From a virus, in IMG/VR virus record IMGVR_UViG_3300010354_000504, positions 1 to 27,235 of that record: a stretch of 27,235 nt of DNA; one strand, given 5' to 3'. Below, piece after piece: positions 1,488 through 25,174 of the stretch. The notes under the pieces were generated by a model. That model did no database searches and was not told the origin of the DNA. It saw nothing but the letters and a program-made list of their open reading frames with translations. Made by a program: the position numbers and the translations under genes. Each line of letters begins with the position of its first letter. Position 1 is the first letter of the stretch.

Positions 1488-4346
1488 TTACCTCAATGCA
1501 AGTATGAGTGGTGTAACTTCTGCTTGAATCGCTTTACTGAAATCTCTTCCTCTAATAGTAGCGGTAGGTTGATTAATTTGAAATCCTTCTCCAATATCAA
1601 AATTACCTTTTTGATCCGTACTTGTAAATGGAATTTGTGCTCCATCTAAAGCAACAATTTCATTTTCTTTAATAGGAACACCACCAGTAAATGGTGTCGC
1701 TATATTTATGTCAGTACCAGTACCAATATATTCAAATGAGTGTGAACTGGTAAGAATTCTGCTGATTCTTCTGAATGAGACTTCTTCTCCACCAAATAAC
1801 TCATATGGAATGAATTCAGTGAACGTAACTGTTGTAATTCCTGTAGAATTTTCTGTTGCTGAATCGACTGCATAATAAATTGGTCTTGTGATTACCTCTG
1901 CAGTTGCACTTCCACCATCAATAAAAACTTCAAGATTTTGCGTTGAAAGATAGTTTCTTCCACTATTTACAACATCAATTGCTGTAATTGCACCACTTAC
2001 TTCATCAATAGTTGGACTTAGTTCGGCGATAATGCCTTGTGGACCCTTTGGTTGTTGAGAATTATCAGAACTATCACGAATAATAACAGTTGGTGGAGAA
2101 GCAGGACTATATCCACTTCCTCCATTTGTGACTACTATTTCTTGAATATCGACCATAGGTTCTGAAATTATACCACTACCAACAGCATCTGGATAATTTT
2201 CCAAATCTATCTTGAAAAATAATGTTTGACCATCGTAAGGTCTTCTTGAGTTTCCTACATTTTCGAAAGTAACAATATCACTACCAGCATCAACACCAGT
2301 TTGACCTCTATTCGGAGGATAAGTACCTACGGTTCCTGTAAATTCTGTGGATCCAATTCCAACAGCATATAAACCATAATTACCAAAAGAAGAGTTTGAG
2401 TTTGTTAAGTCACAAGATCCACCACTATCACAATAAATTCCAATGTCACAGTTAATTGTAAAGATAGAAACTAACTGAGCGTAACCATTATTTGTAATTG
2501 AAACGCCAATGCCATTTTCATTGTATTGAGTAAATGAATCACAAACCATACACTTCAAATCATTACCTGGTGTAGAGGCAGTCGCATGATCGCCATTAAT
2601 TTTCATACCAATACTGCCAGTCATAAAGTTAGTGCAGTTTCTGATATATGGACTTCTCCATCTACCACTTGGTCCTTCAGTTGCTGGTCCTGGGGCAATA
2701 TATCCAGAAACAGCATAATCTGCAGGATTAGTTGAGGGGAATGCTACAGCACCACAACCCGGATGATTTACTAAAACACTAGTTCCGGCAAAGTTTATAT
2801 TTTCAATTAGACATCCTCTTCTAACATGAAAAACATCTTTAGTAACATTTAGTGGTCTAATGGTAACAAGTCTCAGATCTTGTCCTGTTACTGTAACATC
2901 AGTGCGAAGACCAATAGGATTATTTTCAGTATAAACACCGGGTCTAATAACGATCGTATCTCCAGGTTCTGCTACTGCCGCTGCACCACCTATAGTTGCT
3001 TTTGCATCTCCCTCAAGAAAACCAGTATTTGAGTCATTACCATCTTTTGTAACCCAAATTGTATTTTGTGTTTCAACTCCAGCAGGTCTCCAAGATACAC
3101 CAGTTCCTACAGAAGCAAGTCTATAATCAGTTTTTCCTACACCAGGTCCTGCAATTTCTCCATTAATATCAATTAGAGAAGAATTGAGTTCAATAGTATT
3201 ATTGAAAACTGCAGCACCATCAACATTTAAAGTTGCATCTAAGTCAGTAGCACCTTGTACATTTAAAGTATCTCTAAGTGTAGTAGCACCGTCAACGTCT
3301 AAAGTATTATTAAGTGTTGTAGCACCATCAACATTTAAAGTTGCATCTAAGTCAGTAGCACCTTGTACATTTAAAGTATCTCTAAGTGTAGTAGCACCAT
3401 CAACGTCTAGAGTGTTATTAAGTGTTGTAGCACCGTCAACGTCTAAAGTATTATTAAGTGTTGTGGCACCATCAACGTCTAATGTTGAATTTAAAGTAGT
3501 AGCGTCATCTACGTTTAATGTAGAATCAAAATCAACTGCTCCAGTTGCATGAACAGTTCCAGTTATGTCTAAAGTTTCTACTGGATTATTATTCTGTATA
3601 CCAACTTTAGTCATTCTATAGATATCATTACTTCCATTAAATCCCCATAAGTCTTGAGACTGTATATCAGCAATGAAAGTGGGATTACTTGGGTTTGGAA
3701 TTGGGATAATTGTATCAGTACCTATTCCAAAACTATTAATTTGTTTAAAGTTTAAAACAGTAAATGATTGTGCTATTCCTGCTGTTGGAATATATGTTCC
3801 TTCATCTTGTACATATATTCCTTCAGTAAAGTTTGGAGTTCCTGCTATCCAGCGAATTCCACTGGAATCCATATTTAAGTAATAACCATTTATTCCAGGA
3901 GAATTTACAGAATCATAAATAAATTCATCAATTTTAACACTTCCTGCTACATCAAGTTTTTGTTCTGGTTCTGTACTTCCAATTCCAACCTTTCCACTAA
4001 TTATTGCAGTTCCAACTACATCTAATTCTTTTTTTGGAATTGAAGTTCTAATACCAACTCTACTTGTTTCTGTATCTGCTCTTAAAGTTGTACCACCTAC
4101 ACCAACATCAAGTCTTTTTCTTGCTGTTATTATACTTGCACTAATATCCTTATTAAAATAAACATTTTCATAAAAATTAGATGATCCAAAAACTTCTAAA
4201 TATCCTTCTATCTTTACATTATTAAATTCTATGAGATTATTTTTTCTAAAATCATAATAAAGGGTTCCATAAATGTAAACATCTTTATAAAATTTTACAT
4301 CTTCATTAAAAAAAGTTTCTAAACCAAAATACTGATTGTTACTCAT
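1488..4346 (-). CDS. Large fibre-like structural protein with 12-residue repeats and beta-helix
   Basis: A 952-residue protein. The N-terminal ~170 residues contain motifs of the VGIG-(S/T)-x-E-P-x-x-x-L-D-V type found in fibre proteins. Residues 275-382 are nine tandem 12-residue units of the form N-T-L-D-V-D-G-A-T-T-L-x. Residues about 420-650 look like a right-handed beta-helix (pectate-lyase-like: a W-V-x-K-D-G-N-D segment followed by V-I-R-P-G-V-Y strands), often a host-surface-binding or depolymerase fold. The C-terminal part has a GGSGY module (about residue 745) also present in the gp5-like protein. The start overlaps the stop of the spike gene (ATGA). Likely a tail fibre or baseplate appendage. 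Enzyme activity cannot be inferred from sequence. Confidence 0.75.
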   Translation of the reverse strand: MSNNQYFGLETFFNEDVKFYKDVYIYGTLYYDFRKNNLIEFNNVKIEGYLEVFGSSNFYENVYFNKDISASIITARKRLDVGVGGTTLRADTETSRVGIRTSIPKKELDVVGTAIISGKVGIGSTEPEQKLDVAGSVKIDEFIYDSVNSPGINGYYLNMDSSGIRWIAGTPNFTEGIYVQDEGTYIPTAGIAQSFTVLNFKQINSFGIGTDTIIPIPNPSNPTFIADIQSQDLWGFNGSNDIYRMTKVGIQNNNPVETLDITGTVHATGAVDFDSTLNVDDATTLNSTLDVDGATTLNNTLDVDGATTLNNTLDVDGATTLRDTLNVQGATDLDATLNVDGATTLNNTLDVDGATTLRDTLNVQGATDLDATLNVDGAAVFNNTIELNSSLIDINGEIAGPGVGKTDYRLASVGTGVSWRPAGVETQNTIWVTKDGNDSNTGFLEGDAKATIGGAAAVAEPGDTIVIRPGVYTENNPIGLRTDVTVTGQDLRLVTIRPLNVTKDVFHVRRGCLIENINFAGTSVLVNHPGCGAVAFPSTNPADYAVSGYIAPGPATEGPSGRWRSPYIRNCTNFMTGSIGMKINGDHATASTPGNDLKCMVCDSFTQYNENGIGVSITNNGYAQLVSIFTINCDIGIYCDSGGSCDLTNSNSSFGNYGLYAVGIGSTEFTGTVGTYPPNRGQTGVDAGSDIVTFENVGNSRRPYDGQTLFFKIDLENYPDAVGSGIISEPMVDIQEIVVTNGGSGYSPASPPTVIIRDSSDNSQQPKGPQGIIAELSPTIDEVSGAITAIDVVNSGRNYLSTQNLEVFIDGGSATAEVITRPIYYAVDSATENSTGITTVTFTEFIPYELFGGEEVSFRRISRILTSSHSFEYIGTGTDINIATPFTGGVPIKENEIVALDGAQIPFTSTDQKGNFDIGEGFQINQPTATIRGRDFSKAIQAEVTPLILALR
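3201..3524 (-). repeat. Nine tandem 36-nt coding repeats
   Basis: Nine in-frame units of 36 nt encode the 12-residue repeats of the 952-aa fibre-like protein. Units 4-6 and 7-9 are a near-identical higher-order duplication of 108 nt; for example the plus-strand word agttgcatct recurs at 3231 and 3339. Recombination or slippage here would change fibre length without shifting frame. Confidence 0.85.
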
Positions 4347-16202: not shown

Positions 16203-16778
16203 TTCTAGATTTTTATCAAATATCATCACATAACGGTGCTTTCGGGATCTTTCTCTCCATTCTCCCTCAGCACCTTTTACTTTTCCACGAGAGTGCTTAG
16301 TTCCGTTTGAATAGTAGAAATCTTTTTTTGCATCTGATAGACCGCAATACCTAAAGTTGCAAGCCCGATAAATTGTGCCGTGATGATAGTCGCTATCAGC
16401 GTAAGAGATGATTGCTTTAACTTCAGTATCCTTTCGTAACTGTCTAATCGCTTTTGAAACAAACCAAGAAGTGATATTATACTCACTCTGTTGAGTTTGT
16501 GGATGAATACAGAGTCTTGATAGTTCGAAGAGTCCTTGTTGTTCATGGCGTTCTAATCCAAAGGCACCTTTTGCGATTTCTGGCACTGGCAGTCCAGTAA
16601 AAATACAAACTCCTACTGGTCCTCCGATATTCAAAGGAGAAAACTCATTCTTCTTAAACAAACCATAATTTTTTCCTGATTTATATCCCTTTGAAAAATC
16701 TTTAAGGTAATGATAAGTCAGTAGAAGGTCTTCTGCCTGCTTCTTTGTGATTCGGTCAAGGTAATAATCGGATTTCAT
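16188..16778 (-). CDS. Mom-like DNA adenine modification protein (GNAT-type fold)
   Basis: A 196-residue protein. Residues 85-89 are E-L-S-R-L, residues 125-146 read S-Y-A-D then H-H-G-T-I-Y-R-A-C-N-F-R-Y-C-G, and a basic R-K-H-R-Y segment follows near the C-terminus. This combination is characteristic of the Mu Mom family, which converts adenine to N6-carbamoylmethyl-adenine and protects phage DNA from restriction. The start overlaps the stop of the GIY-YIG endonuclease gene by 4 nt (ATGA), so translation is probably coupled. Catalysis here is inferred; a generic GNAT acetyltransferase is the alternative. Confidence 0.65.
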   Translation of the reverse strand: MKSDYYLDRITKKQAEDLLLTYHYLKDFSKGYKSGKNYGLFKKNEFSPLNIGGPVGVCIFTGLPVPEIAKGAFGLERHEQQGLFELSRLCIHPQTQQSEYNITSWFVSKAIRQLRKDTEVKAIISYADSDYHHGTIYRACNFRYCGLSDAKKDFYYSNGTKHSRGKVKGAEGEWRERSRKHRYVMIFDKNLELKWN

Positions 16779-17524
16779 AAAAAAGAACTGTATTTGGTAA
16801 TATGATATTTTGTTTTACCAGTCAGTCTCACAGCATCATTTATAGACTCATATATCACGCCATTATAGCATAATTTTCTTGATCTGCCGTTTTTCTGAAC
16901 TCCTTTCAATCCTTTATTCCAGGGAACTCTTCCTTGTGTTACTTCACTTATTTTTCTTTTAGTTTCCTCACTATGTTTTTGTTTTGGTTTTCCTCTTGCT
17001 CTTAAACCTTTTTCTATATCTGACTGTTTTCTTCTTTCAGTCATAGTTTTTGGAGTTCCTTTATTTGCCTCTGCTATTTTTCTTTTATGATCTTCAGTTA
17101 ATTTTCTCCCTTTAATTGCTTTACTTATTTTTTTCTTTGCTTCTTCTGATACTTTTCTACCTTTACAAATAAGACTTAATTTTTGCCTTTGCTCTAAACT
17201 CATTTTTTTACCTTTATTATGAGCAGATTTTCCTTTTTGACTAAATCCTGTTGAAGTTTGATATGATCTATTAGCAAAGTGTGGATTTTCTACTACTTTA
17301 TAATATTCTTGTAAAATAATCTCATCTGCGTATGCTTCTTCTCTTGTAGCATAATCACTTTTTAAGATTATTTTTTGAGTTGGTTTAAAATTTTTGTCCT
17401 TGAAAGACCCAAAATACTTTACATCTTCTTCGGGTAAACCTTTACAACTTCTACTACCAATATATCCCATTCCCCATTCTTCATAGGAGTAATAGACATA
17501 ATGATACTCTGTTTGAGTTTCCAT
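16775..17524 (-). CDS. GIY-YIG homing endonuclease with NUMOD3 repeats
   Basis: About 249 residues from the ATG at 17524. The frame is open to a TTG at 17551, but the late promoter and predicted transcript start fall there, so the ATG is preferred. The N-terminus has V-Y-Y-S ... M-G-Y-I-G-S-R, a GIY-YIG catalytic core. The middle has four NUMOD3-type DNA-binding repeats (S-E-E-A-K-K-K-I-S-K-A-I-K-G-R-K and variants). The C-terminus has a helix-turn-helix-like C-Y-N-G-V-I-Y-E-S-I-N-D-A module. It is a selfish element sitting between gp32 and gp53, with its own late promoter just after the gp32 terminator. It is coupled to the Mom-like gene downstream. Confidence 0.85.
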   Translation of the reverse strand: METQTEYHYVYYSYEEWGMGYIGSRSCKGLPEEDVKYFGSFKDKNFKPTQKIILKSDYATREEAYADEIILQEYYKVVENPHFANRSYQTSTGFSQKGKSAHNKGKKMSLEQRQKLSLICKGRKVSEEAKKKISKAIKGRKLTEDHKRKIAEANKGTPKTMTERRKQSDIEKGLRARGKPKQKHSEETKRKISEVTQGRVPWNKGLKGVQKNGRSRKLCYNGVIYESINDAVRLTGKTKYHITKYSSFL

Positions 17525-17554
17525 AGTTCTGCTTCTAAATTGAGTTCGCAATAG

Positions 17555-20087: not shown

Positions 20088-20903
20088 TTAAATTTTTTCA
20101 ACCTTCCACTTTTTATGGTGTTTTGCTTTTTTATTTACAACATTAGACATCGCACTTGGATGTAAATTATGTTCTTTACAAAATTTTGTTAAATTTTTAG
20201 TATAAAAAATTTCTCCACTAGGATTTACAATTTTATAATCATTTTTACATTTTGAATTTGAAATTTTTTCCTTTTCACTTTCTGGTCTAACCCTACCATA
20301 AAGAGGATGTTTATCGCCAATTACATTAAATAAGTAATGATTTTTACCACTTCTTTTTTCAAGTGTTGTTGGATTTTTCATTGGATTATTATTTATCCAC
20401 ATATTTCTCATCATATTTCGGTGTGATTGTCTTTTAGATGGATGGTTTTCACCAAGTTTTTTTAATGATTTATTTCTTTTTTCTACAACATCTTTATTTT
20501 TTAAGTGACTTTCTCCACTTTTTAGTCTGATCGAAGCATCTGGTCGTTTTTTACCATAATTAAAATGATTTTTGCCTCTATAAAAAATTTTACTTCTTAT
20601 AATAGCACTTTCAAATAATCTAGAATTACAATATCTTCCATTCCTATACTTATCAGCAGACATCAAAATATGTGCTTTATTCATTTTAATAGATTTCCAA
20701 TCTTCTAATCCATATCTTTTTATATAAATTCTCTCTAATAATGCGTGTGCTATATAATGTTCTCTTGCCGTAAGTACAACAACTCTATCATTTTTTCCAA
20801 AGATACTTTTTGGAAATGTATGATGTTTTTCTGTATAACCTTCAGGAGGAGTTCTGTTTTCTGCCTTTCTTATGAGGTTACAATAATGTTTTAGATAATT
20901 CAT
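20088..20903 (-). CDS. HNH homing endonuclease
   Basis: A 271-residue protein with an HNH motif at about residues 21-55: E-K-H-H-T-F-P-K-S-I-F-G-K-N-D-R, then L-T-A-R-E-H-Y-I-A-H-A-L-L. The basic middle has NUMOD-like segments (G-K-N-H-F-N-Y-G-K-K-R-P) and the C-terminus a helix-turn-helix-like module (F-C-K-E-H-N-L-H-P-S-A-M-S-N-V). It is a mobile gene between the exonuclease gene and gp33. Its leader repeats the structural design of the GIY-YIG gene near gp32, although the proteins are unrelated. Confidence 0.85.
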   Translation of the reverse strand: MNYLKHYCNLIRKAENRTPPEGYTEKHHTFPKSIFGKNDRVVVLTAREHYIAHALLERIYIKRYGLEDWKSIKMNKAHILMSADKYRNGRYCNSRLFESAIIRSKIFYRGKNHFNYGKKRPDASIRLKSGESHLKNKDVVEKRNKSLKKLGENHPSKRQSHRNMMRNMWINNNPMKNPTTLEKRSGKNHYLFNVIGDKHPLYGRVRPESEKEKISNSKCKNDYKIVNPSGEIFYTKNLTKFCKEHNLHPSAMSNVVNKKAKHHKKWKVEKI

Positions 20904-22705: not shown

Positions 22706-23416
22706 TTATATCACATACTTCCAAATATATCCTTTATGTTTTTTTCTTTTGTTTTGACATACCAAAGTTATTTTTGCAGTTGATGCATTATTTTTTTCTG
22801 CAGCAATAGTCATACTATCATATATTTCAATTAAATTTTCATCAACATCATATTTTGCTACTTTTCTAACATTATGAGAAGTTCTTTTATATGGTGGTAT
22901 TTTTGATAATGGTTGACTTTCAAAACTTTTCCACTGAAATCCCCCATAAGTTTGATATTCTCCTCGTGTTACAGCACTTATACCTCTACAATCTGTACCA
23001 AAAACATCATAAGAAGCATCTCTACAACTTTCATAAACATTGATTAAATTTCCATCTAAATCATAACAAGCAACTTTTTTAGAATTACTTTGTTTGACTG
23101 CTTGTTTCCATTTATCTCCATGTTTTTTATTGAGAAATCCACCACCATCACCACCATCAGTCATATTATAGTATGGTTTCAAAAGAGAAACATAATACAT
23201 TTCTCTTTCATTTACTTTATTTTCAAGACATTCTTCTATAATTTCAAATACAAAATTTTCAATGCCATACTTTCTCATAGCATAATATAATTTTGTATTT
23301 CTTACTTTTGAATGGGATTTATGTTGTCTCCATCTTACCTTTGGTTTTTTAGATTTGCCAATATAAATTTGCTCATTAAGAATATTTGTTATTTTGTAAA
23401 TATAATGTGAAACCAT
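22706..23416 (-). CDS. GIY-YIG homing endonuclease with NUMOD1-like repeats
   Basis: A 236-residue protein. The N-terminal GIY-YIG domain has Y-I-Y-K-I-T-N, I-Y-I-G-K-S, R-W-R-Q-H and a catalytic Glu in N-E-R-E-M-Y-Y-V. Two NUMOD1-like DNA-binding modules follow (V-A-C-Y-D-L-D-G-N-L-I-N-V-Y-E-S and V-A-K-Y-D-V-D-E-N-L-I-E-I-Y-D-S). It is inserted between thyX and the phoH unit and has its own late promoter. It differs from the GIY-YIG gene at 16775 in subdomain content, so it is an independent acquisition. Confidence 0.88.
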   Translation of the reverse strand: MVSHYIYKITNILNEQIYIGKSKKPKVRWRQHKSHSKVRNTKLYYAMRKYGIENFVFEIIEECLENKVNEREMYYVSLLKPYYNMTDGGDGGGFLNKKHGDKWKQAVKQSNSKKVACYDLDGNLINVYESCRDASYDVFGTDCRGISAVTRGEYQTYGGFQWKSFESQPLSKIPPYKRTSHNVRKVAKYDVDENLIEIYDSMTIAAEKNNASTAKITLVCQNKRKKHKGYIWKYVI

Positions 23417-24574: not shown

Positions 24575-24600
24575 AAAAAAAGGAGGGAATCAATCCCTCC
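24575..24600 (-). terminator. Intrinsic terminator after the mini-protein operon
   Basis: Minus strand: GGAGGGA, loop TTGAT, TCCCTCC, then seven T. It ends the 24607-24925 operon. Confidence 0.9.
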
Positions 24601-24606
24601 CTTGTC

Positions 24607-24693
24607 TCATTTATCTAACCACTGAATATACATTGATAAACATATAGTGACTAACGCAATTGCTGCGGTAGATGAGACTATAATTTGCGCCAT
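24607..24693 (-). CDS. Single-span membrane mini-protein (28 aa)
   Basis: A 28-residue ORF whose ATG overlaps the preceding stop (TAATG). It is a single hydrophobic helix (S-T-A-A-I-A-L-V-T-I-C-L-S-M-Y-I) with a short polar C-terminus (Q-W-L-D-K). Its size is like the one-helix subunits of cyanobacterial membrane complexes, but no specific subunit is recognised. The coupling with the two upstream ORFs and the terminator right after it support expression. Confidence 0.55.
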   Translation of the reverse strand: MAQIIVSSTAAIALVTICLSMYIQWLDK

Positions 24694-24788
24694 TACTTTG
24701 CTCCTGCGTTTACAAGCAGTGCCTGATGACGACGATTCTCTTTTTGCTTTTGCTCTTTGATGAGTTGAAGCACATTGAGTTTTTTCAT
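24693..24788 (-). CDS. Basic mini-protein (31 aa)
   Basis: A 31-residue ORF coupled to both neighbours (TGATG and TAATG). It is helical and basic (I-K-E-Q-K-Q-K-E-N-R-R-H-Q), possibly nucleic-acid binding. Function unknown. Confidence 0.55.
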   Translation of the reverse strand: MKKLNVLQLIKEQKQKENRRHQALLVNAGAK

Positions 24789-24925
24789 CACTTGTGCCCC
24801 TCTTTTACAAACTTGACCCCACGATAGGTCTCATTGTATTGTTGAGGTTGCTGCATCATTTGTTGTTGGTATTGAATACGCTTTTCAGTATCGTATTCTA
24901 CGCCACGATAAACTACACGACTCAT
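24788..24925 (-). CDS. DUF4278-like mini-protein (45 aa)
   Basis: 45 residues with a strong Shine-Dalgarno AAGGAG (24938-24933) 7 nt before the ATG. Two Y-R-G-V motifs (V-V-Y-R-G-V-E-Y and T-Y-R-G-V-K-F) flank a Gln-rich stretch. The Y-R-G-V-x-Y motif marks the cyanobacterial DUF4278 family, which is also found in cyanophages. It is the first gene behind the tandem glutamine-riboswitch-like leader, so its amount may follow cellular glutamine. Function unknown. Confidence 0.7.
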   Translation of the reverse strand: MSRVVYRGVEYDTEKRIQYQQQMMQQPQQYNETYRGVKFVKEGHK

Positions 24926-24957
24926 TGGTTTTCTCCTTAGTTTTTTAGGTTAAAGAG

Positions 24958-25055
24958 CGTTCCTTCAGTCGGCGTTTGCGTTCGGTATTTGCGAATACCG
25001 AATGAACGGATCCGTTCCGCGTCGGCTTACTTCCGTCTGGTTTTCCAGATGAACG
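24958..25055 (-). ncRNA. Tandem glutamine-riboswitch-like aptamers (glnA / Downstream-peptide type)
   Basis: Two related units on the minus strand. Unit 1 (25055-25013): CGTTCATC, hairpin TGG-AAAA-CCA, GACGGAAGTAAG, CCGAC, GGAACG. Unit 2 (25008-24958): CGTTCAT, hairpin TCGGTATT-CGCA-AATACCGA, ACG, GCCGACTGAAGGAACG. In each, CGTTC pairs with GAACG. The hairpins differ in sequence but keep pairing. These elements match the glutamine riboswitch consensus as I know it; the related Downstream-peptide class occurs before short ORFs in cyanobacteria and cyanophages. Just after unit 2, CTCTTT (24957-24952) can pair with the AAGGAG ribosome site, a possible expression switch. Confidence 0.75.
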
Positions 25056-25062
25056 TAAGGTC

Positions 25063-25091
25063 ATTATAGACCCTGTATTAATATTTAGCAA
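25063..25091 (-). promoter_or_regulatory. Host sigma70-type promoter of the riboswitch/mini-protein operon
   Basis: TTGCTA (25091-25086), 17-nt spacer, perfect TATAAT (25068-25063). The predicted start at about 25056 falls at the first base of aptamer 1. Confidence 0.75.
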
Positions 25092-25136: not shown

Positions 25137-25164
25137 AAAAAAATTGCCGGGATTTTTTCCCAGC
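25137..25164 (-). terminator. Intrinsic terminator upstream of the riboswitch operon
   Basis: Minus strand: GCTGGGA, five A, TCCCGGC (7 bp with one G-U), then AA and seven T. It ends the 26133-25175 unit. Confidence 0.88.
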
Positions 25165-25174
25165 ATCCGGTAAA

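Follow-up and report, generated by a model that had tools for sequence, protein, structure and literature searches.

The locus and its operon

The DNA analysed here, to which we refer as the window, comprises 27,235 bases of an IMG/VR virus record with T4-like cyanophage content (PhoH, ThyX and tail genes). The locus of interest lies on its minus strand. A -35 hexamer TTGCTA (25086-25091) and, after a 17-nt spacer, a -10 box TATAAT (25063-25068) agree with the sigma-70 promoter consensus at 10 of 12 positions, and the promoter ends 7 nt before a structured element (24957-25055) that we interpret below as a nested double glutamine aptamer. Pattern scans of IMG/VR, with search patterns that required CGTTCA and GAACG, returned at least several hundred relatives of this element; among the matches listed, 81% of 362 relatives have a TATAAT-like box at the same place. 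An earlier note on this DNA had let the transcript begin at the first aptamer base, and both the promoter and its recurrence in relatives support such a start.

Behind the element, the leader can fold into an anti-SD hairpin (24933-24957, -4.4 kcal/mol), in which CUCUUUA (24951-24957) pairs with UAAGGAG (24933-24939) and hides the SD. The proposal that CTCTTT acts against the ribosome site is thereby borne out. Three small ORFs follow, as had also been claimed: a DUF4278-like ORF of 45 aa (24788-24925), a basic one of 31 aa (24693-24788; the gene call, 24693-24791, starts at a GTG further upstream and gives 32 aa) and a hydrophobic one of 28 aa (24607-24693). The set ends in an intrinsic terminator of 10 pairs followed by a T run (24579-24603), and no terminator was found between the aptamer and the first gene. 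The DUF4278 label is weak: the 45-aa protein scores 18.4 bits with PF14105, against a gathering cut-off of 25.3, but it does match the phage family phrog_5049 (E = 8e-11). The 31-aa and 28-aa ORFs have no match in Pfam or PHROGs.

Several further observations concern the surroundings of the operon. An intrinsic terminator of the upstream gene (25145-25165, minus strand) isolates it. The -10 box is the centre of an inverted repeat, GGTC-TATAAT-GACC (25059-25072), whose letters vary among 150 distinct relatives while the complementarity stays (GGTC/GACC, GCAC/GTGC, GAAG/CTTC); the arm has a mean of 4.14 against 2.41 when shuffled, and it reaches at least 4 bp in 113 of the 150, as compared with 5% of 781 other TTG-N-TATAAT sites. 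Elsewhere in the window, three minus-strand ORFs (16775-17551, 20088-20903 and 22706-23416) read like GIY-YIG/HNH homing endonucleases and sit between structural and replication genes, and a tail-fibre-like ORF of 952 aa (1488-4346, minus strand) contains repeats of (T)LNNTLDVDGATTL.

One composite match in place of two aptamers

Read on the minus strand from 25055 to 24957, the element consists of CGTTC, A, a hairpin TCTGG-AAAA-CCAGA, CGGAAGTA, AGCCGACG, CG, GAACG, GATC, CGTTC, A, a second hairpin TTCGGTAT..ATACCGAA, CGCAAA, CGCCGACT, GAAG, GAACG and C. The earlier note had recognised two units with a shared CGTTCAT, two differing hairpins, GCCGAC segments and two GGAACG strands, all of which are there in letters, and had taken them for tandem glnA-type glutamine aptamers. 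A search of the whole window with RF01739 (Rfam Glutamine) agrees as to the family, with 45.5 bits (E = 4.3e-7) against a gathering cut-off of 35. Instead of the two covariance hits that had been expected on the minus strand, however, it gave a single match (24954-25057), in which unit 1 contributes its 5´ half and unit 2 its 3´ half to one aptamer, and the 57 nt between these halves appear as an insertion in P3. The isolated units score poorly (35.4 bits for unit 1 and 24.3 for unit 2, with the same cut-off of 35), because unit 1, which does possess CGGAAGUA, has no GAAG before GAACG, and unit 2, which possesses GAAGGAACG including GAAG, has CGCAAA at the expected CGGAAGUA site. The Downstream-peptide model, which had also been expected to match, stayed below its cut-off (RF01704, glutamine-II; 15.8 and 14.6 bits against 33). 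Sub-threshold Rfam matches of the leader to freshwater-2, PreQ1, sucA and snoRNAs were taken as chance. The record of S-CREM1 already labels the compact element of its own sequence as one 99-nt "riboswitch glnA".

If strand a (CGUUC, 25051-25055) pairs with strand d (GAACG, 24958-24962) to form an outer P1, a three-helix junction of P1, P2 and P3 with both CGGAAGUA and GAAG is complete. Outer P2 is then the hairpin UCUGG-AAAA-CCAGA (25036-25049). The CGGAAGUA strand (25028-25035) contributes G25033 (x) to a long-range pair with C24957 (y2), the P3 5´ strand AGCCGACG (25020-25027) pairs with the 3´ strand CGCCGACU (24967-24974), and the GAAG junction (24963-24966) leads into strand d (together 24958-24966). 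By every feature tested in the sequence, this outer part is a glutamine-I aptamer. Inside P3, strand b (GAACG, 25013-25017) pairs with strand c (CGUUC, 25004-25008) as an inner P1, which is closed by the loop GAUC (25009-25012) and followed by an inner P2´ hairpin UUCGGUAU...AUACCGAA (24981-25002) and the CGCAAA strand (24975-24980). Here G25012 (y) would be the long-range partner of C24978 (x2).

Covariation across the units

Among the matches listed, the relatives comprise ordinary single aptamers, true tandems with two complete units and a large set of the window type. The last contains 126 distinct compact elements. If X denotes the nucleotide that follows the first GCCGAC and Y the one that precedes the second, the two form G-C in 84, U-A in 36 and A-U in 6 cases, a Watson-Crick pair in 126 of 126 with no mismatch. 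The outermost P3 pair is A-U, G-C, G-U or C-G in 125 of the same 126, and, again among the matches listed, entire P3 helices are exchanged in step (AGUCG/CGACU, GGACGG/CCGCCC, AUUCG/CGAAU). The two GCCGAC segments therefore pair across the units and constitute P3 of one aptamer. For the 38 distinct P3 strand pairs among these matches, 81% is paired, against 67% (at most 72%) after shuffling. The helix is not perfect: most sequences have an A.C mismatch at two of eight P3 positions, and 72.8% of the helix cells in the alignment are paired.

In both known classes of glutamine riboswitch, the P1 (or PK) helix terminates in a long-range pair, which the third base of CG[x] forms with the nucleotide directly behind GAACG (PMC6698751). 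When a is paired with d, the corresponding outer pair (x:y2) is G-C or C-G in all 126 compact relatives among the matches listed. In a 56-sequence alignment (A1), P3 and the long-range pairs of the nested fold reach a covariation score of 0.306, against 0.096 for shuffled controls (0 of 500) and at most 0.041 for slid ones. RNAalifold, with no structure supplied, returns a consensus with the nested P1 helices, a with d among them. The minimum free energy fold of the window is nested as well (-23.3 kcal/mol, against -17.8 for the tandem fold); thermodynamic stability alone is unremarkable (z = -1.66; 13 of 200 shuffles fold as well). The P1 strands are invariant because the search patterns fixed CGTTCA and GAACG, so the covariation support applies to P3 and the long-range pairs. 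All these relatives were counted without phylogenetic weighting; an artefact of a single lineage is unlikely, since compensatory changes occur at more than one position of P3 and in each of the two long-range pairs, and whole helices are swapped.

Two natural minimal forms divide the element into its parts. One viral sequence (L232) has no inner module, and a tight UAAA loop closes its P3; in another (L217), an unrelated hairpin stands in place of the module. Both keep GCCGAC...GCCGAC, with U as X and A as Y, as well as the terminal GAAGGAACG(C). These deletions thus identify what belongs to the outer aptamer and mark the inner part as a module. The covariation of a shared P3, the long-range pairs and the minimal forms lead us to read the element, from sequence comparison, as a glutamine-I aptamer that contains, within its P3 arm, a second module which resembles a circularly permuted aptamer, with P3 common to both. 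The tandem arrangement of the earlier note does not survive this comparison, and its two units are not equivalent.

The inner module

From P3 inward, the inner module runs through the P3 5´ strand, CG, GAACG (b), a loop of 3-6 nt, CGUUC (c), A, P2´, CG[x2]AAA and the P3 3´ strand. Judged by this strand order, it is a glutamine aptamer opened in P3 and joined across P1, in other words a circular permutation that uses the same P3 from the other end. P1, the CG[x] strand and the long-range pair are all recovered in the permuted order; the CGGAAGUA/GAAG E-loop junction is replaced by CGCAAA and CG. Among the matches listed, the inner long-range pair (b with c) is complementary in 116 of the 126 compact elements and, where P2´ holds an ORF, in 117 of 125. 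It also shows compensation from C-G to G-C, with x2 = G in eight of the compact relatives listed, all of which have C or U as y. Of the exceptions among these matches, 16 of 18 show a G as the third base of the loop.

CGUUC, GAACG, CG[x] and the long-range pair, through which both known classes contact glutamine (PMC6698751), are kept in the module. Ligand binding is not assured, because CGGAAGUA and GAAG of glutamine-I are absent. We think that the inner module is probably a second glutamine site which rigidifies P3 and makes the response steeper.

Genes inside the P2 loops of relatives

The window element is of the compact form and has no ORF in its loops. Among the matches listed, the inner P2´ loop is filled by an ORF in 125 distinct cases and the outer P2 loop in 79 loci, with both loops filled in 43 loci. 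Such ORFs belong to T4-like cyanophages; the carriers include P-HM1 (L621), with PHM1_179 and PHM1_180 in its loops, P-SSM4 (L622), six further loci (L121, L122, L125, L300, L376, L461) and about 200 others. The loop ORFs are conserved and about 50-70 aa long. They start at an AUG within, or adjoining, the 5´ strand of the P2 stem, and this strand forms pairs with the 3´ end of the loop. Most of the inner ORFs in the 125 listed cases end at the UGA of GAC-UGA-AGGAACG; their last codons (Asp-Ala-Lys-Ala-Asp and similar) and stop are therefore aptamer sequence. The closing run of P2 has a mean of 5.8 for inner and 5.5 for outer loops, against 3.9 and 4.0 with shuffled partners, and in 41 aligned inner ORFs the differences at the three codon positions are 0.27, 0.15 and 0.44, as for a translated gene. 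Of five loop peptides tested, three have a match in PHROGs (504, 6471 and 13397, each a family of unknown function), and a peptide like phrog_504 is present in 311 phage records.

A seemingly lone first unit followed by ATG turned out to be a complete nested element, with its 3´ half after the small ORF. The idea that such "single" elements with an adjacent ATG represent a simpler switch was rejected for this reason.

Distribution

The nested element was present in all 14 phages checked by sequence, among them S-IOM18 and the isolates P-HM1, P-SSM4, P-RSM4, S-TIM5, S-PM2 and S-T4. A scan of 84,980 species, with one genome each, gave 8 matches for the nested form, of which one (Bosea) is due to chance and the other seven lie in phage-like sequence context; a host origin of the nested form was rejected on this ground. 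A Prochlorococcus single-cell genome has the nested signature on a contig that also carries a T4 portal gene; this contig accounts for the one genome out of 201 in the host family with the signature, as compared with RF01739 in 33 of 101. Given this rarity in species genomes and in the host family, the nested form appears to be phage-specific. True tandem glutamine aptamers, with both units complete and 6-9 nt apart, were noticed in seven viral contigs (L013, L025, L190, L193, L201, L218, L230); nested and tandem forms thus coexist.

A possible mechanism

The nested topology, the shared P3, the conserved long-range pairs, the promoter and the anti-SD hairpin are shown by comparison; that this RNA binds glutamine, and what it does physiologically, we infer. 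We suggest that transcription from the sigma-70-type promoter would start close to the first aptamer base, and that one glutamine-I aptamer (outer P1 from a and d, P2, CGGAAGUA, P3 and GAAG) would then arise from the 5´ half of unit 1 together with the 3´ half of unit 2. L-glutamine would stabilise outer P1 and the terminal long-range pair G25033:C24957. Because C24957 serves both this pair and the SD-hiding hairpin, of which it is the first base, binding would take the closing pair from the hairpin and expose the ribosome-binding site. With plentiful glutamine, the three-gene operon (the DUF4278-like 45-aa, the basic 31-aa and the membrane-like 28-aa protein) would be translated.

When C24957 is withheld, the anti-SD hairpin falls from -4.4 to -1.7 kcal/mol, at a cost of 2.7, and the mean unpaired value of the SD rises from 0.01 to 0.24 in the window and from 0.05 to 0.26 in 68 relatives. 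In 65 of these 68, the leader hairpin includes a pair with the base y2, against 6% of shuffles. Our preference for an ON switch at the level of translation, which is a matter of analogy, follows from the known glutamine-I and -II riboswitches, both of which turn expression ON with glutamine (PMC6316151). It may not be general, since in marine relatives whose outer pair is C-G the leader differs and lacks the same simple anti-SD hairpin. As a whole, the combination of nested topology, ON mechanism and control of the operon by glutamine seems to us a likely explanation of the locus.

The alternatives concern both topology and function. Two complete tandem aptamers, each independent and with its own P1 (the "pseudo-cooperative doublet" of the literature), could be drawn here, since CGUUC and GAACG occur in both units and allow a to pair with b and c with d; glutamine doublets have been reported (PMC2864571, PMC9481103), and true two-aptamer tandems exist in other phages (L013, L025, L190). 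This is nevertheless strongly disfavoured and in our opinion very improbable. Unit 1 is without GAAG and unit 2 without CGGAAGUA, the pairing would create G.G and C.C clashes at the long-range pairs in 57 of the 126 compact relatives among the matches listed, and in alignment A1 these tandem pairs score at shuffle level, with 50% paired. P3 covaries across the units and is kept without the inner unit in L232 and L217, and the folding energy, too, favours the nested form. A degenerate duplication of no present function would account for the poor match of single units to the family, but we find it hardly credible for an element which is kept with compensatory changes in at least hundreds of phage sequences, including many isolates, and which mostly lies directly behind a promoter-like box.

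If the fold is nested, the inner module might still not bind glutamine and might act as a structural cap or as a decoy for P1 strands, only the outer aptamer being the sensor. The absence of the E-loop strand and GAAG of glutamine-I speaks for this, as do the functional-looking forms without the module (L232, L217). We take it as a real possibility, somewhat doubtful in view of the compensatory change in the eight relatives with x2 = G, of the G at loop position 3 in 16 of 18 exceptions and of the retention of just those residues (CGUUC, GAACG, CG[x] and the long-range pair) that contact glutamine in both classes (PMC6698751). A further alternative concerns the direction of control. The anti-SD hairpin is nearly complete without ligand, and withholding C24957 frees the SD just to 0.24 in the window; moreover, outer P1 could stack on the hairpin. 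Glutamine might then close the leader, or the hairpin might be constitutive and the aptamer act otherwise, for example on transcription. Such an OFF or transcription-level switch strikes us as unlikely, because the glutamine-I and -II switches described so far are of the ON type (PMC6316151). Further, y2 is common to both structures far more often than the 6% expected by chance, and a terminator is missing between the aptamer and the gene.

Relation to known systems

The nested element that we favour shares with the glutamine-I family (RF01739) the P1 of CGUUC/GAACG, P2, CGGAAGUA, P3, GAAG, the terminal long-range pair and a DUF4278-like gene downstream. It differs in that P3 is no simple hairpin and encloses the permuted aptamer-like module, and in that the P2 loops of relatives hold ORFs. 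In the two-aptamer glycine riboswitch there are likewise two sites for one ligand on one RNA, but the aptamers stand in succession, whereas here one lies inside the other. The published tandem glutamine riboswitches (157 doublets and 4 triplets; PMC9481103) also have two aptamer-like units in one leader. In the window, by contrast, the units are interleaved, with strands of unit 1 pairing with strands of unit 2 and one P3 common to both, and it does not contain two complete, independently folding aptamers (35.4 and 24.3 bits, with failing tandem long-range pairs). Some of the published doublets may be of the nested type. With glutamine-II (RF01704), a class that adjoins small ORFs, the inner module has in common CGC with GAACGG and the same long-range C:G pair; it lacks the P2/pseudoknot (15.8 against 33 bits), and its P1 is closed by a 3-6-nt loop and joined to P3. 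Circularly permuted ribozymes (hammerhead types I-III, twister forms; PMC10085705) present a functional RNA core re-used with changed strand order, while here a riboswitch aptamer shares a helix with an unpermuted copy of itself.

The earlier note had called this a poorly explored control system. Cyanobacteria, however, are already known to have DUF4278 genes behind glutamine riboswitches (PMC6316151), so this part of the control logic is not as novel as had been claimed; what seems new is the architecture. In the part of the literature that we covered, there was no prior description of a nested or permuted glutamine aptamer or of ORFs in its loops. In riboswitch "tandems", each of the two units is taken to sense on its own. 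The glutamine doublets, a widely reported class, would here include a fold with interleaved halves and with one aptamer circularly permuted inside the other, and on such a shared helix cooperativity would be built into P3.

Further, we propose that phages possess an architecture of their own, in which a normal and a circularly permuted aptamer offer two glutamine sites back to back on the shared P3. One or both P2 loops of relatives would be whole genes, with the start codon in or beside the P2 stem and the inner ORFs running into the aptamer. The RNA would thus be sensor and message at once, with glutamine binding excluding translation of the embedded ORFs and vice versa. This proposal may equally well hold or fail. 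The loop ORFs suggest that an infected cell's nitrogen status is sensed by the very RNA under translation, and the nested riboswitch offers a testable handle on widespread cyanophage genes of unknown function.

P3 appears to accept other insertions as well. Glutamine-I aptamers of twelve marine viral loci (L129, L130, L138, L142, L145, L149, L151, L169, L173, L176, L195, L198) carry in P3 a different conserved module, GAAAACCUC-hairpin-GG(C/A)AAGC(U/A)AGUACC..GGGAACGAGACCGA(A/C)A. No Rfam family was found within the insert in the four loci searched; the module is possibly a second nested sensor. On one of these contigs, a permuted tmRNA gene (RF04321, 112 bits; L176:1848-2164) lies about 3.3 kb from the glutamine riboswitch with the P3 insertion, an arrangement that recalls the riboswitch/ssrA pairing reported for phage Melnitz (PMC9004378).
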